Below, one piece after another: positions 731 through 20,632 of a stretch of 25,922 nt of DNA (positions are counted from its first letter, which is position 1; each line of letters begins with the position of its first letter). Made by a program: the position numbers and the translations under genes. A model generated the notes under the pieces. That model was not told where the DNA came from. It did no database searches and saw only the letters and a program-made list of their open reading frames with translations. Origin of the DNA: a virus; the IMG/VR virus record IMGVR_UViG_3300026120_000007, positions 1 to 25,922 of that record. One strand, given 5' to 3'.

Positions 731-746
731 CGTTCTTAGGGGTAAA

Positions 747-2513
747 ATGTACAATGTGGATAGTACCGAAAAACTTACCTATGTCTCCGCCTGTAGCGGT
801 TATGACGGAATCGGATTGGGACTCAAAAGAGTCTTTCCGAATCTTAGAGCCGTCGCTCATGTGGAGATCGAAGCCTTTTGCGCACACAACCTGGTTCAAA
901 AGATGGAACACGGTATCCTGGATCCGTGCCCTGTGTACACGGATATTAAAACCTTCCCATTCCGAGCTTTTCACCGAAAAGTGGGCCTCTTCTCTGCAGG
1001 ATTTCCATGCCAGCCGTTTAGTGTCGCAGGCACAGGCCGAGGGACGGAAGATCCCCGACATCTCTTTCCGTTCATCGCTGAGGGACTCTCAGCTATGCAG
1101 CCCTACTTCGTCCTCCTTGAGAACGTCGACGGGATATTGTCAGCAAAATGCAAAGATCAAGACGGAGCGGAAGATGGAGAGCCTGTGGCTCTCTACGTCC
1201 TTCGAGAGTTGGAGCGCCGAGGTTACATTGCGACGTTCGATATATTCTCAGCGGCTCAAGTCGGTGCGCCCCACCAGCGCAAAAGGGTATTCTTTTTGGC
1301 AGTCCACAGAGACCAACTGTACGGACAGCGCGTTACCGTTCGACAAGCGTTCGTCTCTGCAGCGCAAGCTGTGCGTGATAGACTGCAAAGCGTCTTCTGT
1401 TCTGGTTCAGGATCAGAACAAAGTGTGGTACCTCGTACAGATAGCTCCCACGGGCGTTCAAGGCTCGGAGTCGAACTGGCCAACCCCCCGAGTGAGCTCG
1501 TCGAACGGTCCAAGCGAGAAGGAGATAGCTCAAGGGAACCCGAAAAAGAGGTTGGAGGCGGAGGTTGCTCTGTGGCCAACTCCGACAGTGAGCGGAAACA
1601 ACAACCGAAAGGGGGCGAGCAAGACGTCAGGAGACGGATTAGCGACCAAGGTGAAGAACTGGCCAACCCCAAGTGCGAGGGACTGGAAGGACAGCCCGAA
1701 CATGAGCCAGACGCGGGAAGGAGGGAGAAACCGCGTCGACCAGTTGCCCCGAGCAGTCTTTTCGATGATATGGGAATCGAAGATTTCACAAGAGAAGTAC
1801 GGTACGGTGCCTACCCCTCAAGACCAGGAAAGACTCAGTATGGATGGGAGCCCCCCAGAGTGGTTACGGACGCTATGGAGGACTCCATCAGCTCAGGAGC
1901 CTGGGATAAGCATTTCAAGGCTCGTATGCAAGGACGGGAGTCCTCCGAAGCACAACAAGAGACTTTACGACAAGGAGACTCAGAGGCTGGCTCAGATAGG
2001 ACTTCCTCAGCAGGTTCGCATAGAGGACACTATGGAGGACAATCTGAGCGATCAGGCGGTGGCGGTGTACCGCATAGTGAGCTGGCCAACGCCGAACACG
2101 ATGGACTCGATGGGATCGCGGAGCGAGGATTCGCTGAAGCGGGCGTTGAAGAAGGGCGGATGCCGCAACCTGAAGGACGTAATGACGCATCCGGAGCTTT
2201 ACAGCCTAGAGAGGATGGACGTGAACACGGAAGTTCTCGGGAATCTGATTTTGAACACAGAGGCGGACGTGTTCACGGACATGCTGAAAAGCACGAAGAA
2301 CAAGAACGAAGCGAAGCTGAACCCGAGATGGGAGGAGGTTTTGATGGGATTGCCTGTGGGGTGGACTATGCCAAGCTGTGCATCTCCAGTGACAATCGAG
2401 TTGACGAAGTCCGTTCCTTGGGAAACGGAGTCGTTCCTGCCTGTGCAGAACTTGCTTTCAGACTACTACATAAACGCCTTGAAGCCCAAATTAGAAGAAA
2501 TGTCTCAGATTAA
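747..2513 (+). CDS. dcm: DNA (cytosine-5) methyltransferase
   Basis: 588 residues. It would methylate C5 of cytosine in a specific DNA sequence using S-adenosylmethionine, probably shielding phage DNA from host restriction. Motifs seen: I (VSACSGYDGIGLGL, residues 13-26); IV with the catalytic cysteine in GFPCQPFSVAG (Cys88); VI (ENV, residues 125-127); VIII (QVGAPHQRKRVFFLAV, residues 171-186); and X near the C-terminus (LGNGVVPACAELAF, residues 558-571). The stretch between VIII and X (about 190-545), where the target-recognition domain belongs, is strongly hydrophilic and repetitive, with four LANP/VANS/LANA-type repeats. The whole gene is also open in the +1 frame. Start ATG 747 follows TTAGGGGTAAA. 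No partner endonuclease is visible, so this looks like an orphan methylase. The target sequence cannot be read from the protein. Confidence 0.92.
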   Translation: MYNVDSTEKLTYVSACSGYDGIGLGLKRVFPNLRAVAHVEIEAFCAHNLVQKMEHGILDPCPVYTDIKTFPFRAFHRKVGLFSAGFPCQPFSVAGTGRGTEDPRHLFPFIAEGLSAMQPYFVLLENVDGILSAKCKDQDGAEDGEPVALYVLRELERRGYIATFDIFSAAQVGAPHQRKRVFFLAVHRDQLYGQRVTVRQAFVSAAQAVRDRLQSVFCSGSGSEQSVVPRTDSSHGRSRLGVELANPPSELVERSKREGDSSREPEKEVGGGGCSVANSDSERKQQPKGGEQDVRRRISDQGEELANPKCEGLEGQPEHEPDAGRREKPRRPVAPSSLFDDMGIEDFTREVRYGAYPSRPGKTQYGWEPPRVVTDAMEDSISSGAWDKHFKARMQGRESSEAQQETLRQGDSEAGSDRTSSAGSHRGHYGGQSERSGGGGVPHSELANAEHDGLDGIAERGFAEAGVEEGRMPQPEGRNDASGALQPREDGREHGSSRESDFEHRGGRVHGHAEKHEEQERSEAEPEMGGGFDGIACGVDYAKLCISSDNRVDEVRSLGNGVVPACAELAFRLLHKRLEAQIRRNVSD

Positions 2514-2661
2514 ACAGCTTACAGAAGAAAACGAGAAACTCAGGGAGCTTCTTGCCTCTACGATAAAGGGGATTGAGTCTCTTCAAGAAGAGGGTGACCC
2601 CAATGCTGAGAAGCTCATGGGAGTACTTGAGGCCGAGTACGAGAAGCTTGGGCTAGAATAG
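754..2661 (+). CDS. Overlapping +1-frame ORF inside the methylase gene (possible overprinted protein)
   Basis: 635 codons without a stop, in the +1 frame relative to the methylase and covering almost all of it. It contains five repeats of the form NWPTP/LWPTPT/LWRTPSA/SWPTPN (nt 1477, 1573, 1660, about 1876 and 2083). It also has a block LNPRWEEVLMGLPVGWTMPS (nt 2317-2376) and an early block DFHASR in the +1 reading of the catalytic GFPCQPFS site. From memory, WPTPT...RKGAS...SGDGLAT and LNPxWVExLMGxPxGWT occur in phage proteins annotated as methylase-related, which argues that this frame is or was translated. The 3' end (nt 2500-2661) is a conventional coiled-coil coding segment lying mostly beyond the methylase stop. 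The first third does not look like ordinary protein, and no convincing ribosome site precedes ATG 754. It could be a separate product, a frameshift product of the methylase, or a decaying relic. Confidence 0.4.
   Translation: MWIVPKNLPMSPPVAVMTESDWDSKESFRILEPSLMWRSKPFAHTTWFKRWNTVSWIRALCTRILKPSHSELFTEKWASSLQDFHASRLVSQAQAEGRKIPDISFRSSLRDSQLCSPTSSSLRTSTGYCQQNAKIKTERKMESLWLSTSFESWSAEVTLRRSIYSQRLKSVRPTSAKGYSFWQSTETNCTDSALPFDKRSSLQRKLCVIDCKASSVLVQDQNKVWYLVQIAPTGVQGSESNWPTPRVSSSNGPSEKEIAQGNPKKRLEAEVALWPTPTVSGNNNRKGASKTSGDGLATKVKNWPTPSARDWKDSPNMSQTREGGRNRVDQLPRAVFSMIWESKISQEKYGTVPTPQDQERLSMDGSPPEWLRTLWRTPSAQEPGISISRLVCKDGSPPKHNKRLYDKETQRLAQIGLPQQVRIEDTMEDNLSDQAVAVYRIVSWPTPNTMDSMGSRSEDSLKRALKKGGCRNLKDVMTHPELYSLERMDVNTEVLGNLILNTEADVFTDMLKSTKNKNEAKLNPRWEEVLMGLPVGWTMPSCASPVTIELTKSVPWETESFLPVQNLLSDYYINALKPKLEEMSQIKQLTEENEKLRELLASTIKGIESLQEEGDPNAEKLMGVLEAEYEKLGLE
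2500..2661 (+). CDS. Small coiled-coil protein (or C-terminal part of the overlapping ORF)
   Basis: 53 residues starting at ATG 2500, overlapping the last 14 bases of the methylase in the +1 frame. The sequence is one amphipathic heptad-type helix: MSQIKQLTEENEKLRELL, then a short loop with EEGDPNAEKL, then EAEYEKLGLE. AGAAG just upstream is a weak ribosome site, so translation coupled to the methylase is likely. There is no stop between this ORF and the long +1 frame upstream, so it could also be the C-terminus of a longer protein. Short coiled coils with a DPNAEKL turn are common in small phage proteins, but no function is recognisable. The 3' end overlaps the convergent gene at 2653-2883 by 9 bases. 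Confidence 0.6.
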   Translation: MSQIKQLTEENEKLRELLASTIKGIESLQEEGDPNAEKLMGVLEAEYEKLGLE

Positions 2662-2906: not shown

Positions 2907-5735
2907 ATGGCTATCGAAGACGAACTTAAAAGTACCATGCAGGCGCTCAAGGACTACTCCAAGTCCATCGCCGAGAGTACTGAGGCTATGCACAAGTCCA
3001 TGTCAGGAAGTACTAGCCAAGTTTCGGCGCTGACTAAACAGCTCAAGAAAAAGAAGACTGAGGAGGAGGCGAGCAATGTACGAACGAAGGCTTATTCCAA
3101 ACACCTCAAGCAGAGCGTAAAATACCTCAAGCAGGGCGTAAAGGCTTACTTTGACATGAATAGGGCGGCAATGCAGGCGTCCACAAACCTTGCGAACAGA
3201 AGCAGGATGTTCGAGTCAGCGATGCACACCCAGCTCGCGCTAGGTACCAGCATACAAGAATCAGCTACAGCTCAGCGTGCGCTTGTTGATTTAGGTCTTG
3301 AGACTAGGGACACTTACACGGAAATGCTTCACGTGAGTTCCATGCTTACGGCAGGGTTCGAGGTGCAGGCAAACACAACGGCTAGACTCGCTCTACAAGC
3401 GGACGCGGCAGGCACGAGCTTTGAGCGCATGGGCGACATCGTCTCAGGCATAGCCCAGGCAACCTCTGTATCAGCAGAGAAGTCAGCAGACTTCTTAGCG
3501 AACATGACAAAGAGTGCGTCTTTACTTTCGGGTAATGTAAGCAACGTGAACGCCCAAGTAAAAGAGCTGTCAGCCCTGCAGGAGGCTTTCCGTAGCGTGG
3601 GGATCGAGGATAACTCTTTAATGGACTTTGCGCAGAACCTCCAATCAGGCAAAAACACTGAGTTCATGCTTACGTTCAAGACAGGAGCGGGCAGTACGTT
3701 CAGTCCTGAACGTATGGTAGCAGGAATTGAAACGCTTGCTTCGCGTGTACGTTCTGTGCCTGAATCTTTGAAGCGTACGGTCGCAGAACAGCTCAGCAGC
3801 TCGTTCAACATCCCTGCTGAACTCATACTTGCAAAAGCCACGTATAGCAACCAGATGTCGGAAGAACTCAAGACGATTAGAGAGCGTATAAAGGAAGAGA
3901 CAAAGCTTAAATCGCTAAGGGAAGGGTTCAACGAACAGATGGGTCAGCTGGGTAAAGTATGGGAGCAACTCAAGAATAGGGTAGGAACTCTGCTTGCTGT
4001 AGGTCTCGAACCGTTGGCGAAGGTATTGGTTAAAGTAGGCACCGCTGTGAACGACCTTCTAGGCGGGCTTATAGACAGCTTGCAGAAGGAAGACGGGGCG
4101 ATGCGGAAGATCGTGGATTCGGTCTCTTCCGTGGTGGGAGGTATTGTAGCTCTGGGCGCCGCCCTTGGTACTCTCGCTGGGGGGCTTTCTGGGCTTCCTG
4201 GGTTGTTTGGAGGGCTTTCTAAGTTGCTCGGAGCGGGAGGCAAGAAAGGAGGGCTTCTTTCTGGGTTGTTTGGAGCGGGAGGCAAGAAAGGAGGTATGCT
4301 CGGCGTCCCTGGTGCAACTAAAAGCAAGGGCGGGGCGTTAGCCCGATTCGGCAAAGGAATGAAGGGAAAAGGTTTCCTCGGAGCAGGTATAGGGCTGGTT
4401 GCTGGAGGAGGTTTAGAAGGCCTCATAGGCGGGTACCTCCTTGAGCGAGGTGGAGCATACGCTATTGATAAGCTTACATCGATCGCTACCAAGTCTGCCA
4501 CCAAAGCAGCACAGAAGACAGCAACGCGCTTCGTAGCGCGTTCAGCACTTCAGTTGCTGAAGAACCCTGCGGTTCTGGCTACCGCTGCCTACGGCTATTC
4601 CGCTTTCAAACTTGCAGAGACCTTTATGACCGCAGGCAAAGGCAAGAAGGTAGAGGCCTCAAGCTTTGCAACAAGCGGGTACTTTGAGTCAGACGCCCTC
4701 CAGCGAGCAATCAAAAACAAGGCTTTAGACGTTCAAATGGGCGCCCAGCTCGCCCCAGGTGAGAGGGGGTACACTGAAGGGTTTCACCCTATAAAAGGGT
4801 TTGGGCAGAGTGCTACAGAGATGTACCGCGCCGTTGTTACGCGTGACCTTGACGAATACAAAAAAGAGCGTGCCGTCGAAAGAAGGGGACAAGAACTTGC
4901 CGCCGTCAAGGCAGCTATCCAAGAAGCACCTGCTACTGTATCTAATAGCGAGCTAGAGGAACTCACTGCGATGTCTGTTCGTGCAAGCAAGCTGAGGCTC
5001 GGCACGAGCGATACGGACGAGAGGTATAGCAGGCTGCTTGGCCTTCGACGACAGGCTGATTACGGTACTGACGAAGTAATGGCGCAGTTCAAGGAGCTTC
5101 AGGGCGTTGCTATGAGTCGCCTCCTGACTGAAGAAGGGTGGGAAGGCGAAGGCGCTGATTTCCGCCTTGTAGCGGCTGATTACATAAAGAAAAACCCAGA
5201 CTTCATCAAGGGTTATGAGGATAAGAAACTAGACACAGGTTCTCAGCAAGCAATGGTGTCTGCTATAATGGGCATAAGCGAGAACCGCCGTATGACTGGT
5301 GCTGGCAGGCTGGCGACGGCAGACTTCCTTAAAAAGGTTGGTGTTAAGTTCAAAGATGGGGCGATGATCGTGGACGAAGAAGGTCGCCCTGTTATCCAGA
5401 CCTCTCTGACGCAAAGCCAGGTAAAGGATCGCTACCAGGCAGCCTTAGAGTGGTCAGAAGCGCGTATTATGCGCCAAAACGCAAACGAAACGCTACGCCT
5501 CCAAAGAGGTCTCCTTTCGATAGAAGAGGAAGCTTTAATGATTCAGCGCAAGCAGCAGGCGGATATGATACAAGGTATCCGACATGTGAGCGAGACGATA
5601 GACCTTACTGAGGCTAAAAAGAAGGCGCTAGAGGAGAGTAAAATAAAAATAGAAAAGCAACGTGAAGACATCCGAAACTTCAACGAAGGCTTAAACCAGT
5701 GGCAAACAGTCACAAAGCCCACCCCCGTTATATGA
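2907..5735 (+). CDS. Tail tape measure protein
   Basis: 942 residues. The tape measure fills the tail tube lumen during assembly and sets its length. Evidence: long helical, Ala/Ser/Gln-rich N-terminal half with heptads; a central glycine-rich hydrophobic stretch (about residues 405-515, including VVGGIVALGAALGTLAGGLS) typical of the membrane-interacting part; then a long polar helical C-terminal part. Length and composition fit T4 gp29-type proteins. Using the usual rule of about 1.5 Å per residue, the tail would be roughly 140 nm. The hydrophobic region holds a repeated GAGGKKGG segment encoded by two identical 23-base DNA copies. The next gene, a baseplate/tube-cap-like protein, overlaps it by ATGA. 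The start carries the TATTTATA motif and no Shine-Dalgarno sequence. Confidence 0.9.
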   Translation: MAIEDELKSTMQALKDYSKSIAESTEAMHKSMSGSTSQVSALTKQLKKKKTEEEASNVRTKAYSKHLKQSVKYLKQGVKAYFDMNRAAMQASTNLANRSRMFESAMHTQLALGTSIQESATAQRALVDLGLETRDTYTEMLHVSSMLTAGFEVQANTTARLALQADAAGTSFERMGDIVSGIAQATSVSAEKSADFLANMTKSASLLSGNVSNVNAQVKELSALQEAFRSVGIEDNSLMDFAQNLQSGKNTEFMLTFKTGAGSTFSPERMVAGIETLASRVRSVPESLKRTVAEQLSSSFNIPAELILAKATYSNQMSEELKTIRERIKEETKLKSLREGFNEQMGQLGKVWEQLKNRVGTLLAVGLEPLAKVLVKVGTAVNDLLGGLIDSLQKEDGAMRKIVDSVSSVVGGIVALGAALGTLAGGLSGLPGLFGGLSKLLGAGGKKGGLLSGLFGAGGKKGGMLGVPGATKSKGGALARFGKGMKGKGFLGAGIGLVAGGGLEGLIGGYLLERGGAYAIDKLTSIATKSATKAAQKTATRFVARSALQLLKNPAVLATAAYGYSAFKLAETFMTAGKGKKVEASSFATSGYFESDALQRAIKNKALDVQMGAQLAPGERGYTEGFHPIKGFGQSATEMYRAVVTRDLDEYKKERAVERRGQELAAVKAAIQEAPATVSNSELEELTAMSVRASKLRLGTSDTDERYSRLLGLRRQADYGTDEVMAQFKELQGVAMSRLLTEEGWEGEGADFRLVAADYIKKNPDFIKGYEDKKLDTGSQQAMVSAIMGISENRRMTGAGRLATADFLKKVGVKFKDGAMIVDEEGRPVIQTSLTQSQVKDRYQAALEWSEARIMRQNANETLRLQRGLLSIEEEALMIQRKQQADMIQGIRHVSETIDLTEAKKKALEESKIKIEKQREDIRNFNEGLNQWQTVTKPTPVI
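4230..4294 (+). repeat. 23-base direct repeat in the tape measure gene
   Basis: Two identical 23-base copies (4230-4252 and 4272-4294), each encoding GAGGKKGG, are spaced 42 bases apart, a multiple of three. The bases between and before them are also similar (ctgggttgtttggag occurs twice). This looks like an in-frame duplication of about 14 residues in the hydrophobic core, which would change tail length slightly. Confidence 0.75.
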
Positions 5736-6808
5736 GACACACAGACGAAAGAGACGCATTCGACAGGTACGGAGCTACGATGAGTGGCTACCTGTACGCC
5801 CTAGACAGTGCAAGTGACGCTTGGGGCTCTCCCTTCATCGCTTTTCCAGCCCTCCCTGACGAGATAGACTTTACAAGAGAAAACAGCTTCGACGTCGTGG
5901 TTAACCAACTGTACCCTGATGGAATACACATCTACAGGGGTACACAGCCCTTAGAGATCCCTATGTCGTTCGTGCTTCACGCGTACGACTACGATTACTG
6001 CAACGGACCGCACGGACTGGTAGAAATTGCCTCGAAACTCCACTCACTCGCCCTTCCCTTGTCAAGAGGAGGGGAAGCGAAGGATACCAGTGTACCTACG
6101 GCTCAGGACGAGAAGAAGAAGGACGAAGATGGTGAGGCCGACCCTGACGAAGCAGTCGACGAAGCAGTCGACGAAGCAGGTCAGAGCGTGGAGTCTAAAG
6201 ATAAAAGCTCCCCTGACGACAATGTCACGGTTGCTCAGTCTAATCGAAACCGATTAGAAACTAGCAGTAGAATTAGCAAAAGTATAGGCGCGGAAGGTAA
6301 TGTTCCGACGTGGCCGCCTGTCTGCGTTATGAGGTTGATGGTTTCGGGTCAGAGAGGCGTACATTGCATCGGGTACTTGAAGCGCGTATCTGTCAAGTTT
6401 AAGGGTCCGTGGCTTAACGAAAAACCAAAAGATGCTGGCAGAGACTACGCAACGTCCGAGGAGCTTAGAGGTAGAAAGCCGGGGCAGAACTTACCTACCG
6501 CCTTGGAGGCGAGCTTTACCTTCGTACACGCCCCTGGTTATCGGAACAAGTTTTCAGTTGATGACGACAGTGCTTACTACGATGAGCGCATAGGTGTGTT
6601 TAACCAGACGTTCGGTGAATACGTACATGACCACTTCTACGACACTATAGACGTATCAACTGGGGGTGGTGCCGTGTCTATACGCACGGTAAAAGACCGA
6701 AGGGTGGCCGTGAAGGACGAAAACGGAAAAATTCTGTACACTTACTCAGACCAATCCAGCCAGATTAGAGGTGAGCGGGCTAGGCAGGCTACGCAGAACG
6801 GAGGTTAA
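5732..6808 (+). CDS. Baseplate / tail-tube-cap-like structural protein
   Basis: 358 residues from ATG 5732, which overlaps the tape measure stop (ATGA); an in-frame start at 5699 would lie inside that gene and is less likely. The N-terminal domain (about 10-110) contains GYLYALDSASDAWGSP, DEIDFTRENSFDVVVNQ and PLEIPMSFVLHAYDYDY. The C-terminal half has PPVCVMRLMVSGQRGVHCIG, YLKRVSVKFKGPW and LPTALEASFTFVHAPGY. The pattern of a central strand, then 'xVxVxFxxPW...LPxxLExSFTF', is what I associate with baseplate proteins that cap or nucleate the tail tube (T4 gp48/gp54/gp53-like). Its place just after the tape measure agrees. Between the halves is a disordered acidic linker (about 110-190) with a DEAV tandem repeat. 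The exact T4 equivalent is not certain. Confidence 0.65.
   Translation: MRHTDERDAFDRYGATMSGYLYALDSASDAWGSPFIAFPALPDEIDFTRENSFDVVVNQLYPDGIHIYRGTQPLEIPMSFVLHAYDYDYCNGPHGLVEIASKLHSLALPLSRGGEAKDTSVPTAQDEKKKDEDGEADPDEAVDEAVDEAGQSVESKDKSSPDDNVTVAQSNRNRLETSSRISKSIGAEGNVPTWPPVCVMRLMVSGQRGVHCIGYLKRVSVKFKGPWLNEKPKDAGRDYATSEELRGRKPGQNLPTALEASFTFVHAPGYRNKFSVDDDSAYYDERIGVFNQTFGEYVHDHFYDTIDVSTGGGAVSIRTVKDRRVAVKDENGKILYTYSDQSSQIRGERARQATQNGG
6146..6180 (+). repeat. 12-base tandem repeat encoding DEAV
   Basis: gacgaagcagtc is present twice in perfect tandem (6146-6157, 6158-6169), followed by a partial third copy (6170-6180). It encodes DEAVDEAVDEAG in the acidic linker of the baseplate-like protein. Such repeats often vary in copy number by slippage. 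Confidence 0.85.
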
Positions 6809-8739
6809 GACCACTTAAACGTAGTCCCTTTTGTCTCTTTTGTTGCCGTAAGAACGTAGTCAGCGTACTTCTCAGTCTCTTCGTGGTGGTCAACTAAGAA
6901 GATGAGTATGCGTCTTTTGTGTGCGACCTCTTTCAAGTACGTCAGTATATTGTGTCGGACTACGCCATCTTGAGAGTTGATGACCTCGTCGTACCATCGG
7001 TATCCGACTTTAGAAGGTACATTGCCAAGTTCAGCTAACGTCTCGGACACGATCAGGTTTGTAAGACCTGACTCGCCCTTCGAGTTCCCCTCTACGCGCA
7101 CGCTTCCGTATCGGTTACGCGCGTCCACGATAAGTTCTGCGCGACTCTCCCCGCTCTTGAGTTCCTTGCTCGTAGAATAGTTGATCGCTAGAGTGCCGCC
7201 TGTCAATCTCTCGGATATGCGCGTCGATATGGCGGTCATAGGGCGGACGGCATCACGAAGGATCATGTTAGGTATGCCAGCAGGGCTAAAAGCCTTTGAC
7301 CAGTAATCGCCTATGAGCGAAACCTGCTCGGCTTCAGCAAGCATCTCGGCTGCTTTTTTAAGGCGGTCTTCGCAGCTTCTGAGTGCTTTTCTTCGCTCTT
7401 TTACGATGACCTTAGCTTGCACGACTTCGGCGTCAGTGACCTCTTCCGACAGGCTCTTGATTTTGGTCTCAAGTGCCGTTATCTCGTTTTCACTGCGCGT
7501 AGCTGATGTTTCCGCGCTCTCGTACTTCAAGCTCAACTTTCGCACTTCGTTTGATCCGTTGTCCTCCAGCTTAGCCTCGACACCGTCCATTTTGTCATCG
7601 AGTTCGTCTAAAGTGGAGTCCCAAGCAAGACACGCATCCTCAGCCTCATTCCACGATTCCTCAGCCTTTTTCTTGGCAGCCTTTAGGCGTTTGATCTCGT
7701 CTTCGCTATGCTTCTTGTCCCAGTCCTTTCCGCATGTAGGGCATACGTCAGGTTCGCCGCTGGCGTCTTTCAAAGCTTTTTTTGACGCAGACAGGTCAGC
7801 TTTCCTGTCTGCTCGGACACTGACCCACTTATCGCGGTCGTGGCGAGCCTGCTTCGCCTTTGATTTGACTTCGAGAAGCTCTTTGCGTAAAGCCTCGTGC
7901 TTCTCGGCTACCTTAACCTCTGCGTCAGCGATGCTTTTCTTAATACGCTTCATGTCCTCACGGAAACCCTTCACAGACTCCGCAAGCGCGGCAATGTCAC
8001 CTTCTGCTTTTTTAATCTCGGGTTTCCTTTTCTTGAGTTCGTCTGCGTAAGACTCTTCCGCCTCTTTCAGATCCTCCTTGGCTTCCTCAAGGGCTTCTTT
8101 AGCCTCCTCAACGTTGCTGCGGGCTTCTTCCTGCGCACGCTGCTCGCTTATGAGGTCGCTCTTGAACGCTGAACTCGCTTTTTTGACCTTGCCGTGGAGA
8201 ACGTCCCACGAAGGCTGGTTCAGTGCGGACATTACAATGTGGACAGTGTCAGCTTGTGAGAGTCTGTTGAACTTCAAAGAGTCTCCGTCGACGTACACAG
8301 TCCACTCTGCCAGCTTGGGAGGCAGTCCGATGGCGTTCGACAAATCTTCCCGCGTAACAGTAGTGCGGTTTCGCTCAATCGGTGCATTGTCGCCTATCGT
8401 GTACCGAAGACCTTCCCCTGTTGATCCTACTTCGGCACACTTGTACCCGTTTTCTACGAGAAGCTTGCTCCCGTTAAGTGTAGCATTTACAGCTACGTAA
8501 GTGTTGCCTTCATCCTTGTAGCTGTAGTGACCTATCTTAGCGTACCTGCCTGGGACTCCTAAAAGCGCACGGCTAAGGGCTTCCCCGAGAGCTGTCTTGC
8601 CTGAGCCTACTGACTTTAGCTTACCGTGTCCCGTCAAGTTTTGACCGTTTACCAGTATTAAACCGTACTCAGGGAACGTGATAGTGTCTTCCCGTACCGT
8701 AGCCCAGTTTCTTAGTGTGATGGATTGTATGCGTAACAT
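6805..8739 (-). CDS. Rad50/SbcC-like SMC ATPase (T4 gp46-like recombination nuclease subunit)
   Basis: 644 residues. Rad50-type ATPases pair with an Mre11/SbcD/gp47 nuclease to process DNA ends for recombination-dependent replication. Seen: Walker A SVGSGKTA (residues 43-50); a long N-terminal coiled coil (about 195-325); a zinc hook CPTC (Cys333, Cys336); a return coiled coil (about 345-475); SPAGIPNMILRDAVRPM (485-501); a signature-like GNSKGESGLTNLI (551-563); a Walker B-type region GYRWYDEV (Asp584, Glu585); and a terminal VDHH switch histidine (about 617-619). The overall order and short arms fit phage gp46. No gp47-like partner is in the window. The gene lies on the opposite strand between tail genes, overlaps the upstream convergent gene by 4 bases, and is 13 bases from the divergent SWIM-protein gene. 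Confidence 0.93.
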   Translation of the reverse strand: MLRIQSITLRNWATVREDTITFPEYGLILVNGQNLTGHGKLKSVGSGKTALGEALSRALLGVPGRYAKIGHYSYKDEGNTYVAVNATLNGSKLLVENGYKCAEVGSTGEGLRYTIGDNAPIERNRTTVTREDLSNAIGLPPKLAEWTVYVDGDSLKFNRLSQADTVHIVMSALNQPSWDVLHGKVKKASSAFKSDLISEQRAQEEARSNVEEAKEALEEAKEDLKEAEESYADELKKRKPEIKKAEGDIAALAESVKGFREDMKRIKKSIADAEVKVAEKHEALRKELLEVKSKAKQARHDRDKWVSVRADRKADLSASKKALKDASGEPDVCPTCGKDWDKKHSEDEIKRLKAAKKKAEESWNEAEDACLAWDSTLDELDDKMDGVEAKLEDNGSNEVRKLSLKYESAETSATRSENEITALETKIKSLSEEVTDAEVVQAKVIVKERRKALRSCEDRLKKAAEMLAEAEQVSLIGDYWSKAFSPAGIPNMILRDAVRPMTAISTRISERLTGGTLAINYSTSKELKSGESRAELIVDARNRYGSVRVEGNSKGESGLTNLIVSETLAELGNVPSKVGYRWYDEVINSQDGVVRHNILTYLKEVAHKRRILIFLVDHHEETEKYADYVLTATKETKGTTFKWS

Positions 8740-15844: not shown

Positions 15845-18079
15845 ATGTCCATCACACGCCAATTCCCTGGAGTATATGTGAACGTCACTGACGACTCATT
15901 TATCCCTGAAATACAAAGCCGCTTCCGCTGTGGTATCGTTGGTATCGCCGAGCGCGGAAACTTCGACGTAGCGATACCAACGCGCTCCTTTAAGGATTAC
16001 GCGCGTCAACTTGGCGGCCCCGTTTCAGTGTCACCGCTCAGCAATACGCCACCTTTCGCGCCGACGCCATCTACGCTCGATGACCACACTTCATACATGG
16101 CTCAAGCCGCCGCCCTTATCTCGCAGTTCAGCGATGGTCTGATCTGCGTCCGCGTAGGTCGCAGGTACACCGAAGCCGTTCCAGGTGGAGCTTCAGGTGC
16201 AGAAGGTGCGAGCGTCATACGCACCCAGAACGCAAACCTGCTCGCGGAAAACGACTACGTTCGCATTGTAGAGGCTGGAAAGGCTTCTACCGTAAACGCT
16301 CGCGTCGAAAGTATTGACCTCAATACCAACGAAGTGACCCTCGTGTCCTCAGGGGAAGAAGCTCAGACGCTTGAAGATGACTACACAAGCGCCAAAGTCG
16401 ACACCTGCCCCGTCCGCAACGCCGCCAATGAAGCTGAGACGTTTCTTGACTGCTACGAGTACGAGGACGATCCCGTCGAAGCCAGCCCAAGCGTACCTCT
16501 TCAAATCGTAGGTGACCGTAACGGGTACGCCTGCACAGTGGTCAACGCACCTACGTCCTATACAGATTTCGCCAACATCCTCCCTATCGGGAGTCTCATC
16601 AAGATCACACAAAGTGGTCGCCACGACACGCAGGAGGTCAAAGTCCGTACTCTCGTTCCCGCATCTGCAGGGACTCCTGGTCAAATCTACTTTGAGACAT
16701 CGACCGACGCAGAATCAGGCTACCAACCTCTGCCTCTGCAGGACAGCTACACCGCAGGTCAAATCTACAAGGTAGAAGTACTGTCAGGCGTGTACTCGCG
16801 TCGCCGCTGTATGCAGATACTCGCTAATTCCCCTGGCACGTGGGCTAATTCAGTCAGCGTCGACGACGTTGTACGCGTGTCAGCCAGCAGCAAAGGTCTG
16901 AACGTCCGTATCGCCCCTGGCTCGTCAGCCAACACCAAGCGTATTCTCGTCTATCTTGACGGCTCACTACAAGAAACGCTCGACAATGTCGTGTTCGATG
17001 ACTCGACCGATCCCAACTACGTGACTACGCGTGTGAACGGTAACAGCACTCTCATTGACGACGTCATGGTTCTTCGCGACGAGGCACCTGCTAACACGCT
17101 CGCAGGCTGGAACTCTGGTCCAAACAACCTCAACGACGCGAAGTTCTCGAAAGGGTTCAACGGTGAGGCAGCGACTATCCAAGACTTCATCGGATCGCTT
17201 AACCCTAACACTGACCAGCTTACAGGCGTCAAGGTGTTTGAGGACAAGAACGCCGTACAAGTGAACGTAATCGCCGCTCCCGGTCGCTCTGACATCTACA
17301 TGGCACAGGAGATGGCTCGCATCGCCCGAAAAGTCAACGCAGTCGCCGTGCTGGACGTTCCCCGAGGTCTCAACCTGCGCGAAGCGGTTGACTGGCATAA
17401 CGGAGACGGTCTCTACTCAGGAAACGGACGTATCGACAACCCGTACGTCGCGCTTTACTGGAACTGGTTCCGCATGGCGGACGCCTTTACTGGTCAGTCA
17501 GTTTGGACGCCTCCTTCGCTCGGAGCGCTCCGCGCCCTCGCCTACACCTTCCAGAACGCAAAGCCGTGGTTCGCTGCGGCGGGTGACGCTCGTGGTCAGC
17601 TTCCAGAAGCCACAGCGGTCGAGTTCGACCGCGTACAGGATGAAAACCTAGACGCTGCCTATGGTAACGGCAACTCGATCAACCCGATCCTCCTGTACCG
17701 TGGTCGTATCCAAGTTTACGGTGAACGTACCCTGCAACGCGCAGAATCCAAGCTCACCGCCCTCCACAACGTTATCCTCGTGAACTACGTCGTGAACGGC
17801 CTGAGCATCATCGGACGTCAGTTCGTCTTCGAGCCAAATGACAACACCCTCCTTGACCAAGTCAAGGAAGCCTACAGCGGCTTCTTGGAGGGTATCCGCA
17901 ACGAGCGCGGCATTGAAGGCTATGATCTGACAATCGACTCTACCAACAACAACGCGGACACACGTAACCGCCGTGAGGTTGTCGTGGACCTGTCTATCAT
18001 ACCGACAGACGCCGCTGAGCGCATCCTTGTGAACGCTACCGTTCGCGAGTCTGGTGCTGTCCTCAACCAAGCATCTTAA
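15845..18079 (+). CDS. Tail sheath protein
   Basis: 744 residues. It polymerises around the tail tube and contracts during infection. Seen: N-terminal FPGVYVNVTDDSFIPEIQ, typical of sheaths; a large beta-rich insertion (about 110-315) in the position of the surface-exposed domains of T4 gp18; and the conserved C-terminal half with LGALRALAYTFQNAKPWFAA, NSINPILLYRGRIQVYGERT, LTALHNVILVNYVVNGLSII and the closing VVVDLSIIPTDAAERILVN. It is longer than T4 gp18 (659), mainly because of the insertion. Codon use is shifted to C-ending codons (ATC, CGC/CGT, CTC) compared with neighbours that use ATA and AGG freely, as expected for an abundant protein. The tail tube follows after 18 bases with a strong ribosome site. 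Confidence 0.95.
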   Translation: MSITRQFPGVYVNVTDDSFIPEIQSRFRCGIVGIAERGNFDVAIPTRSFKDYARQLGGPVSVSPLSNTPPFAPTPSTLDDHTSYMAQAAALISQFSDGLICVRVGRRYTEAVPGGASGAEGASVIRTQNANLLAENDYVRIVEAGKASTVNARVESIDLNTNEVTLVSSGEEAQTLEDDYTSAKVDTCPVRNAANEAETFLDCYEYEDDPVEASPSVPLQIVGDRNGYACTVVNAPTSYTDFANILPIGSLIKITQSGRHDTQEVKVRTLVPASAGTPGQIYFETSTDAESGYQPLPLQDSYTAGQIYKVEVLSGVYSRRRCMQILANSPGTWANSVSVDDVVRVSASSKGLNVRIAPGSSANTKRILVYLDGSLQETLDNVVFDDSTDPNYVTTRVNGNSTLIDDVMVLRDEAPANTLAGWNSGPNNLNDAKFSKGFNGEAATIQDFIGSLNPNTDQLTGVKVFEDKNAVQVNVIAAPGRSDIYMAQEMARIARKVNAVAVLDVPRGLNLREAVDWHNGDGLYSGNGRIDNPYVALYWNWFRMADAFTGQSVWTPPSLGALRALAYTFQNAKPWFAAAGDARGQLPEATAVEFDRVQDENLDAAYGNGNSINPILLYRGRIQVYGERTLQRAESKLTALHNVILVNYVVNGLSIIGRQFVFEPNDNTLLDQVKEAYSGFLEGIRNERGIEGYDLTIDSTNNNADTRNRREVVVDLSIIPTDAAERILVNATVRESGAVLNQAS

Positions 18080-18097: not shown

Positions 18098-18754
18098 ATG
18101 CCTATCAAGTATAAAAACGTATGGGGTTCGGCGGGATCGAACCTTGAACAACAACGTTCTGACCTTTTCAAAGTCAGCATCAATCTGCCAGGTGCAGGAG
18201 GTAACGGTGTAGCCGCGTGGGAGCAACAAGTACAGTTCGCTATCACGAAGTTTCCGTTCCCTAACCGTACCCGTGAAACCATCCCTGTGAAGTACCTCCA
18301 GCAGGTCAACTACCAGCTCGGCGGAGACACGCCGCAGGACCCAATCACCATCACTGCCCGCTACGGCTTTACGCAATCTACGGCTGAGGCGCTTGAGCGT
18401 TGGCACTGGCAGATTGCCCACCCAGGCTCAGGCGGGGTGTCCCTTACGTCGTCCATCAAGACTTTCGGGTACTTCTACTGGCTCGTGCCGAACCAAAAGC
18501 TGCTGACCAACGAAGTAAACCGCATCAATGACGCGCAGCCAGCTGACGTTATGCAACCTGGTGCGACGTACGTCCTTGAAGGGGTGCTTCTTACAGGGCT
18601 CAAGCCGACAGACGCGGACATGGAGCAAGGCAACCAGCTCGTGTACTACGAGATGACCATATCCATTGACCGCTACTATCCGATCCACCCGTCCGACCTC
18701 AAGGTACCATCGAACGAGAGCGTCGTTGGCAACGAAGGTCTGGTTTCCCGCTAG
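18098..18754 (+). CDS. Tail tube protein
   Basis: 218 residues, directly after the sheath, as in T4 (gp18-gp19). It would stack as hexameric rings to form the inner tail tube through which DNA passes. Seen: MPIKYKNVWGSAGSNLEQQR, SDLFKVSINLPG, the helix-containing RYGFTQSTAEALERWHWQIA followed by HPGSGGVSL, and a late strand LVYYEMTISIDRYYPI. The N-terminal pattern 'MPI..KN.WG..G.L..QRSD' is shared with the protein at 23614-25146, revealing a tube paralogue. It has a strong ribosome site and highly biased codons and is followed by a terminator, all fitting high expression. Confidence 0.9.
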   Translation: MPIKYKNVWGSAGSNLEQQRSDLFKVSINLPGAGGNGVAAWEQQVQFAITKFPFPNRTRETIPVKYLQQVNYQLGGDTPQDPITITARYGFTQSTAEALERWHWQIAHPGSGGVSLTSSIKTFGYFYWLVPNQKLLTNEVNRINDAQPADVMQPGATYVLEGVLLTGLKPTDADMEQGNQLVYYEMTISIDRYYPIHPSDLKVPSNESVVGNEGLVSR

Positions 18755-19630: not shown

Positions 19631-19763
19631 TCGGTGGCGTACGATCTACGACTTTGCAAAACAAGGCGTAGGTTTCACAGTAGACCTCACTCAGCTTCCT
19701 GATTGGGTTCTTAACCTATTCATAAAATGGCACAACGAAGAAGCTCAGAAGGGCGGACCGTAG
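19602..19763 (+). CDS. +1-frame extension of the gp26-like protein (gp51-like C-terminal part)
   Basis: 53 codons in the +1 frame after the slippery site. They encode VRTTLQTIDSRWRTIYDFAK, then QGVGFTVDLTQLPDWVLNLF and IKWHNEEAQKGGP. It is a compact helical domain of the kind 'L..I.......gxGfT...l..mP......fIK..nEE..K' that follows the FF end of gp26-type proteins in T4-like phages. The only start codons for this frame in the overlap are weak TTG-type ones, so it is most simply made by frameshifting, giving a product of about 304 residues. Alternatively it is a separately initiated small protein. It overlaps the exonuclease start by 37 bases. Confidence 0.5.
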   Translation, partial: VRTTLQTIDSRWRTIYDFAKQGVGFTVDLTQLPDWVLNLFIKWHNEEAQKGGP

Positions 19764-20632
19764 ATCTTATAGTGGACGCAAACAGCGTGTATGCTAAAGG
19801 GTTTTACGCCGCTTACAATCAACGTGAGGTGTACGAAAACAGTGACGGCGAGCACGTGGAAGGCGTCGTTATGGCTATGAAGATAGTCCTTAGTCTGCTG
19901 AACCCTATGTCAGGTCGCCTACCGACCACCCCAGACCGCCTTCTATTCTGTTGGGATGGCGAACGAAAGAACGAGAAAGTTCGTAAAGACAAGCCTGAGG
20001 GTTACCACAAGCAGATGGAGATATTCAAGGACGTCTCTGAGCAGTTCCTAGGGGCTGCTCACTGCGTTGCAGAAGGTACTGAGGGTGATGACGGCGTTAT
20101 CACAGCCGCTTACCGCTCAGAGAGCGCAGGAAACGTCGTTTACATAGCCTCAGGGGACAAGGACTTGCTGCAGGCTGTTAGCGAGAACGTGAGGTACTAC
20201 TCTATAAACAAGAAACGCACCGTAAACGTGAAGACCGTGTGTGAGGAGTGGAAAGTCCACCGACCTATTCACGTTGCCTTAGCTCTTGCGTGCATAGGAG
20301 ACAAGTCTGACAACATTAAAGGCGTACCTCGGGTAGGCGCGGTCGGCTTTGCAAAGCTGTACAAGGACGCAGTCACTCCTGACATGAACCTCGAAGAAGC
20401 AGCCGAAGCGATAGCGTCGGTTTTAGGGAAGGGAAAGGAAGACCCTTTCTGGGAGTCGTTGGATCAGACTCTGTTAGACTCTGACGTACCAGGTATCGTA
20501 GACCCTAACCCCCTGCACCTCGCTGACTCATCACTGGTGTTAGACCTAGGGTATGATGCCTTGCACAGAGACTACCTAGCAATCTACTGCAATCTGAACG
20601 GTCTCGATCCGGACGATATGTACGACCTTTAG
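19727..20632 (+). CDS. 5'-3' exonuclease / flap nuclease (T4 RNase H / FEN family)
   Basis: 301 residues. This family removes RNA primers and flaps during lagging-strand synthesis. Seen: VDLIVDANSVY (Asp17), LLFCWDGERKNEKVRKDK (Asp77 with the basic arch region), EGTEGDDGV (Glu119, Asp121, Asp122), YIASGDKDLLQAV (Asp144, Asp146), and the helix-three-turn-helix block GDKSDNIKGVPRVGAVGFAK (191-210, Asp192, Asp195). All metal-binding acidic residues expected for the family are present. The length is typical of a free-standing phage enzyme without an attached polymerase. ATG 19727 overlaps the +1 extension of the gp26-like gene by 37 bases, so its translation may depend on ribosomes traversing that frame. 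Its 3' end overlaps the convergent gene by 4 bases. Confidence 0.92.
   Translation: MAQRRSSEGRTVDLIVDANSVYAKGFYAAYNQREVYENSDGEHVEGVVMAMKIVLSLLNPMSGRLPTTPDRLLFCWDGERKNEKVRKDKPEGYHKQMEIFKDVSEQFLGAAHCVAEGTEGDDGVITAAYRSESAGNVVYIASGDKDLLQAVSENVRYYSINKKRTVNVKTVCEEWKVHRPIHVALALACIGDKSDNIKGVPRVGAVGFAKLYKDAVTPDMNLEEAAEAIASVLGKGKEDPFWESLDQTLLDSDVPGIVDPNPLHLADSSLVLDLGYDALHRDYLAIYCNLNGLDPDDMYDL

Follow-up and report, generated by a model that had tools for sequence, protein, structure and literature searches.

A phage C5 cytosine methylase gene with a second conserved reading frame that probably encodes its target-recognition region

Can a single stretch of phage DNA carry two full-length genes on the same strand in different frames and, if so, what does the second contribute to the first? 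The question is raised by a C5 methylase gene in a 25,922-nucleotide fragment of a contractile-tailed phage (positions 1-25922, hereafter the window), where an ORF in frame 0 (alpha, 747-2513, 588 aa) and an ORF in the +1 frame (beta, 754-2661, 635 aa), both complete and both on the plus strand, share about 1.76 kb. Long same-strand overlaps are usually written off as annotation errors, and in a survey of prokaryotic overlaps none of 715 co-directional overlaps above 60 bp was real, the longest real one measuring 56 bp (PMC2478687). The overlap described here is conserved in more than 100 viral loci and in prophages of many phyla. Its features in the window are as follows.

738..742, plus strand: AGGGG, Shine-Dalgarno-like, 4 nt before the ATG at 747 and 11 nt before the ATG at 754
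747..2513, plus strand: predicted alpha subunit, the catalytic chain of a C5 cytosine methyltransferase, with motifs I-VIII and X and without IX
754..2661, plus strand: predicted beta subunit, the +1-frame protein (635 aa) with target-recognition repeats and motif IX, assigned from phrog_1008, relatives and hhalign
754..759, plus strand: overlapping starts ATGTGG, the beta ATG at 754 and an alternative alpha GTG at 756, conserved in relatives
999..1022, plus strand: motif IV GFPCQPFS (DFHASR in beta), alpha being the selected frame
1263..1286, plus strand: motif VIII GAPHQRKR, with alpha as the selected frame and, immediately 5' of it, some constraint on beta
1477..1701, plus strand: beta WPTP repeats at 1477, 1573 and 1660, the last part being ARDWKDSPN (1675-1701), beta selected in the family
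1812..1865, plus strand: alpha element YPSRPGKTQYGWEPPRVV, of the WPSRPGxxQxxWExPR(VV) type, alpha selected
2083..2094, plus strand: extra beta WPTP repeat, with a related WRTP repeat at 1876
2317..2367, plus strand: putative beta equivalent of motif IX, LNPRWEEVLMGLPVGWT, of the LNPxWVExLMGLPxGWT type, beta being the selected frame
2394..2438, plus strand: alpha motif X, NRVDEVRSLGNGVVP, alpha being the selected frame
2500..2661, plus strand: beta-frame coiled-coil tail, whose own ATG (2500) overlaps the stop codon of alpha

A preliminary description had reported two full-length frames through the methylase gene, with 635 stop-free codons in +1, and we find the same, at a length far beyond chance as judged by shuffling. 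When codons were re-drawn synonymously, keeping the alpha protein and following the usage of the window, the +1 frame acquired 17.0 stops on average and never fewer than 7 in 2000 draws, and when alpha's own codons were permuted it acquired 8.7 on average with a minimum of 2, against none observed. The converse null, in which beta is kept, predicts 23.5 alpha-frame stops with beta's own codons and 33.7 with background usage, again against none observed, and the longest +1 runs in the other large genes of the window span 42-126 codons, compared with 635 in beta. The +1 blocks quoted in that description are all present, namely the WPTP repeats, GNNNRKGASKTSGDGLATK and LNPRWEEVLMGLPVGWTMPS, as is the reading of GFPCQPFS as DFHASR. 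We attach next to no probability to the view that the +1 ORF is a mere by-product of the alpha sequence, of its codon bias and its few stop-prone codons, with no gene behind it: composition does help, as the lower stop count under own-codon permutation shows, but every shuffled version still has +1 stops, conservation in the middle and IX zones falls on beta rather than alpha, and methylases confined to a single frame carry +1 stops at the expected number.

Relatives of the locus provide an independent view of the second frame. Of the annotated phages the nearest is C75C1; it has both ORFs, and its beta start follows that of alpha by 7 nt as in the window; the window's kin otherwise comprise a near-identical contig (99.5% over 4.1 kb) and loci at 30-50% protein identity, with no relative of intermediate divergence found among those recovered. 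A viral scan seeded with the beta alignment yielded 79 new loci, or 87 including the window and phage loci, and in 86 of these the two ORFs share 480-2455 nt, always in the +1 register of the window. A second viral scan seeded with alpha only, which removes the ascertainment bias of the beta-seeded set, found beta in +1 at all 80 of its loci, and opposite the catalytic domain the beta frame contained just 4 stops, in two loci, against 209 expected under synonymous permutation. Together the viral and phage sets amount to 164 loci (about 109 non-redundant) with overlaps of about 300 to 2455 nt, and a scan of contigs from bacterial and archaeal genomes returned 80 loci, spread over many phyla, of which 76 have the same overlap. 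Exceptions exist: beta is broken in two alpha-selected relatives (L218 and L260), and a frame is broken in L044, L064 and L081. The longest overlap, with 2455 nt common to the alpha and beta ORFs, lies at 2952-5516 of L018.

The start region is likewise conserved. In 26 loci, the largest class, the two start codons form ATGTG, an alpha GTG sharing bases with the beta ATG; in others, the window among them, an alpha ATG lies a few bases upstream of the beta start, and in the K1ind2, Lily and Klebsiella phage groups beta starts about 90-180 nt inside alpha. A conserved 5' segment, AATGTGGATACTACC, translates as MWILPK in the beta frame and V-D-T-T-K in the alpha frame. Several phage records already contain the arrangement seen in the window, in the form of annotation only and with no role given to the second frame in the records or in the literature consulted: K1G and K1ind2 list the overlapping pair as 'C-specific methylase' and 'Mte8-like protein', and Lily lists the second ORF as 'g62 internal gene'.

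To see which frame selection acts on, we used the register of the two proteins. Because position 3 of an alpha codon falls on position 2 of a beta codon, and position 1 on beta position 3, divergence by codon position reveals the selected frame. In pairs of relatives 75-85% alike, divergence at alpha positions 1/2/3 was.19/.12/.31 over motifs I-VIII,.31/.11/.13 in the middle zone,.32/.10/.08 in the IX zone (LNPxWVExLMGLP) and.08/.05/.53 in motif X, a profile that implies selection on alpha, then on beta, then on alpha again. Segment by segment, the selected frame is alpha in I-VIII, beta in the WPTP/ARDWKD stretch, alpha in the RPG element, beta in IX and alpha in X, and this switching rules out a chance origin: the +1 ORF is real. 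Furthermore, in conditional tests where one protein was fixed and codons were permuted, the mean z for alpha beyond beta and for beta beyond alpha was 4.1/0.5 at motif IV, 3.6/1.5 at motif VIII, 0.3/1.8 at ARDWK, 3.2/0.1 at the RPG element, 0.5/3.4 at motif IX and 2.5/0.1 at motif X, and beta was conserved opposite the catalytic domain as well (mean z 6.0 per pair, with a peak at residues 25-84); the pairs are not independent, and these values rank zones rather than yield probabilities. Each frame is under purifying selection beyond what the other imposes, in different segments, which is the mark of a functional same-strand overlap. True overprinting, one of the two readings first proposed, is strongly supported: the +1 protein sequence is conserved in homologues, relatives almost never introduce +1 stops, and no codon-shuffled control is as long in +1.

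What, then, does each frame encode? Alpha matches PF00145 (1.3e-27) up to residue 214 and phrog_363 (2.9e-45), as well as HhaI and HaeIII in the PDB, where the match ends after motif VIII; overall its database matches end within about 80 residues of motif VIII, short of X. The methylase frame had been called complete, which holds for motifs I, IV (PCQ), VI (ENV), VIII and X, all in frame 0, but not for motif IX and the target-recognition region, which PF00145 members carry in the same chain and which here sit in +1, the selected frame in the IX zone. The hydrophilic, repetitive part of frame 0, earlier suspected of being constrained by the second frame, turns out to consist mainly of the WPTP repeats read in the other frame (CTGGCCAACCCC, LANP in alpha and WPTP in beta). 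Between VIII and X, alpha is probably for the most part a forced other reading of beta with a linker role, except for the conserved element WPSRPG..Q..WE.PR (extended form WPSRPGxxQxxWExPRVV), which is present in 35 of 84 loci. In Lily and Rhynn just some 45-50 alpha residues separate VIII from X, a spacing too small for a recognition domain.

Beta matches phrog_1008, annotated 'DNA methyltransferase' (7.3e-16), and also phrog_27243; no family in Pfam or NCBIfam matched it. Its identity is best approached through methylases that keep the whole enzyme in a single frame, found in Mycobacterium prophiFSAT01-1, Gordonia phage Derg and viral loci L179-L182. These resemble the window in having the same catalytic domain, PTP repeats, a LNPRF.EWMMGWP block and X, and their chains run in the order I-VIII, repeated [LFM]PTP blocks, LNPRFxEWMMGWP and X; they differ from it in using one frame, the +1 frame being closed as chance predicts, except in L182. 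In the catalytic zone the single-frame controls L179-L181, L088 and L089 contain 6-7 +1 stops, the number expected under the null, and L182 has 1 against 3.4 expected. By hhalign the C-terminal part of beta aligns with the target-recognition region of the single-frame methylases (98.4%, E 5.7e-15), the alignment covering the PTP repeats, the LNP..MG.P block and, where beta carries it, X. Since the single-frame relatives hold the same repeats and LNP..MMGWP block in frame with X, beta would correspond to the target-recognition region plus motif IX.

The motif IX consensus of C5 methylases is RxLTPrE.aR..GfP, and the LNP..LMG.P..W block directly precedes X, the position that motif IX occupies in these enzymes; its putative identification as motif IX comes by homology to the single-frame methylases. 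Against the PDB, phmmer of beta and hmmsearch of its C-terminal part gave no matches, and a IX-X profile returned weak C5-methylase matches only (DRM, E 0.42). An AF2 model of one single-frame relative aligns with M.HhaI end to end (1-447, Z 24.5), a match that rests on parts other than the target-recognition and repeat stretch, which is modelled at low confidence. The AF2 model of the window beta alone, built from 48 aligned sequences, is poor (pLDDT 53.6) and too low in confidence for claims about its fold.

L182 (1507-2811) deserves separate mention. In this single-frame gene a hydrophilic stretch (ADTESGPAGNAEQ...), similar to the linker of alpha, still precedes the in-frame PTP repeats; the gene may have arisen recently by fusion of a dual-frame pair.

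Could beta instead be a separate accessory protein, overprinted on a self-sufficient methylase and with a function unrelated to recognition? Its N-terminal part lends itself to that idea, as residues 19-85 (window 808-1008) form a conserved helical region (WRSKPS..TW...LKPS) opposite the early catalytic motifs that is not found in single-frame methylases and may serve at an interface or in contacting DNA. We nonetheless judge this very unlikely, given that alpha is without IX and without a conserved recognition region, for which Lily and Rhynn have no room, and that homology links the C-terminal half of beta to the recognition region of single-chain methylases.

The other early proposal was a frameshift fusion giving an alternative recognition domain. 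In its programmed form, a +1 frameshift would join the alpha N-terminal domain to the beta recognition region in one chain, perhaps with a second shift back to X. The switches of selected frame match the needs of such a product exactly, and in three relatives (L110, L111 and L159) one +1 shift would yield a full methylase. We consider it improbable all the same. A programmed frameshift calls for a conserved slippery site at the switch and does not need the second frame to be open upstream; here no conserved slippery motif follows VIII, what is conserved there being only the codons for KRVFILA, and beta is open and conserved opposite I-VIII, 5' of any useful shift point, where it would have no part in the shifted product (4 stops observed against 209 expected; z about 6, read as a ranking). 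The beta start is itself conserved, alpha stays open through the middle up to X, and the window would need two opposite shifts. The qualifier 'alternative' probably does not hold up either: the +1 product is most likely the sole recognition domain, that is, the missing target-recognition and motif IX subunit of the same enzyme.

Taken together, these data make it very probable that a single DNA segment, translated in two frames, gives both subunits of a C5 cytosine methyltransferase, an assignment drawn from sequence comparison. In the proposed scheme, the one Shine-Dalgarno-like site would serve initiation at the two nearly coincident starts. Alpha would form the large catalytic domain, with SAM binding, the PCQ nucleophile, VI, VIII and X, and beta the small domain, with the target-recognition repeats and IX, which single-chain relatives place between VIII and X. 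The two chains would then associate, beta directing alpha to its DNA sequence, and the enzyme, as a phage orphan methylase, may shield phage DNA from restriction. No restriction endonuclease was recognised among the window neighbours searched, which include just about 750 bases upstream of the methylase.

Methylases split into two chains are already known in kind. M.EcoHK31I, of specificity YGGCCR, needs both of its chains (about 176 and 309 aa) for activity, and the coding sequence of the small chain lies within that of the large chain in another frame. In C5 methylases generally, the small domain comprises the variable region and IX and the large domain I-VIII and X (PMC3404938), which is the very division between beta and alpha in the window. 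The large chain of M.EcoHK31I has I-VIII and X and its small chain IX, whereas in M.AquI the catalytic chain has I-VIII and the second chain the distal recognition region and IX (PMC3404938). By this described motif division, rather than by sequence, the predicted enzyme of the window is like M.EcoHK31I and M.EaeI: two polypeptides, I-VIII and X without IX in one, IX in the other, and in the window family the second chain also lies in an alternative frame. The window differs in that beta spans nearly all of alpha, is the longer chain (635 vs 588 aa), begins at the alpha start and holds recognition repeats besides IX. The M.AquI type, with IX and X in the second chain, is not that of the window, where X is in alpha and the +1 overlap covers almost the whole of the first chain. 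It is the type of L110, L111, L159 and L161, in which alpha ends after VIII or after the RPG element and beta holds the recognition region, IX and X. In L161 (2314-4219) alpha ends at WPSRPGQPQHGWEPPRVC and X has passed to the beta frame, which makes this locus a natural intermediate between EcoHK31I-like and AquI-like splits. Another alternate-frame gene inside phage methylase genes is the ShiLan insertion, a hidden HNH endonuclease (PMC11855218); that one is a mobile insertion encoding a nuclease, unlike the +1 frame of the window, which would encode the methylase's own recognition domain.

In a literature search, we found no paper describing the dual-frame arrangement of phage methylases; the features for which no earlier description came up are the near-complete overlap and its tandem starts, the greater length of beta relative to alpha, the interleaved selected segments and the breadth of distribution. 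We lean towards the view that, across much of the bacterial virosphere, this enzyme ordinarily takes the dual-frame alpha/beta form. Such genes would make up a conserved class of same-strand overlaps of kilobase length in prokaryotic viruses, and annotation would be missing the DNA-reading half because of its position in the other frame. PF00145 matches in many phages cover only the catalytic half of the enzyme, and prediction of specificity would have to use the +1 protein. Furthermore, the family offers a natural test bed for the evolution of overlapping genes, with an internal record of the selected frame for each segment.

The end of beta stands somewhat apart. Positions 2514-2661 lie past the methylase, and the coiled-coil tail (beta residues 571-630) is modelled by AF2 with pLDDT of about 95. 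The stretch 2500-2661 may be a separate gene of 53 aa, into which beta runs after loss of its own stop; the beta of L083 (3001-4884) likewise extends into a downstream ORF. Beyond the methylase, the window carries the following genes, along with baseplate and tail-fibre genes on both strands.

2907-5735: tape measure
6805-8739, minus strand: SbcC-like
15845-18079: tail sheath
18098-18754: tail tube
19727-20632: exonuclease-like
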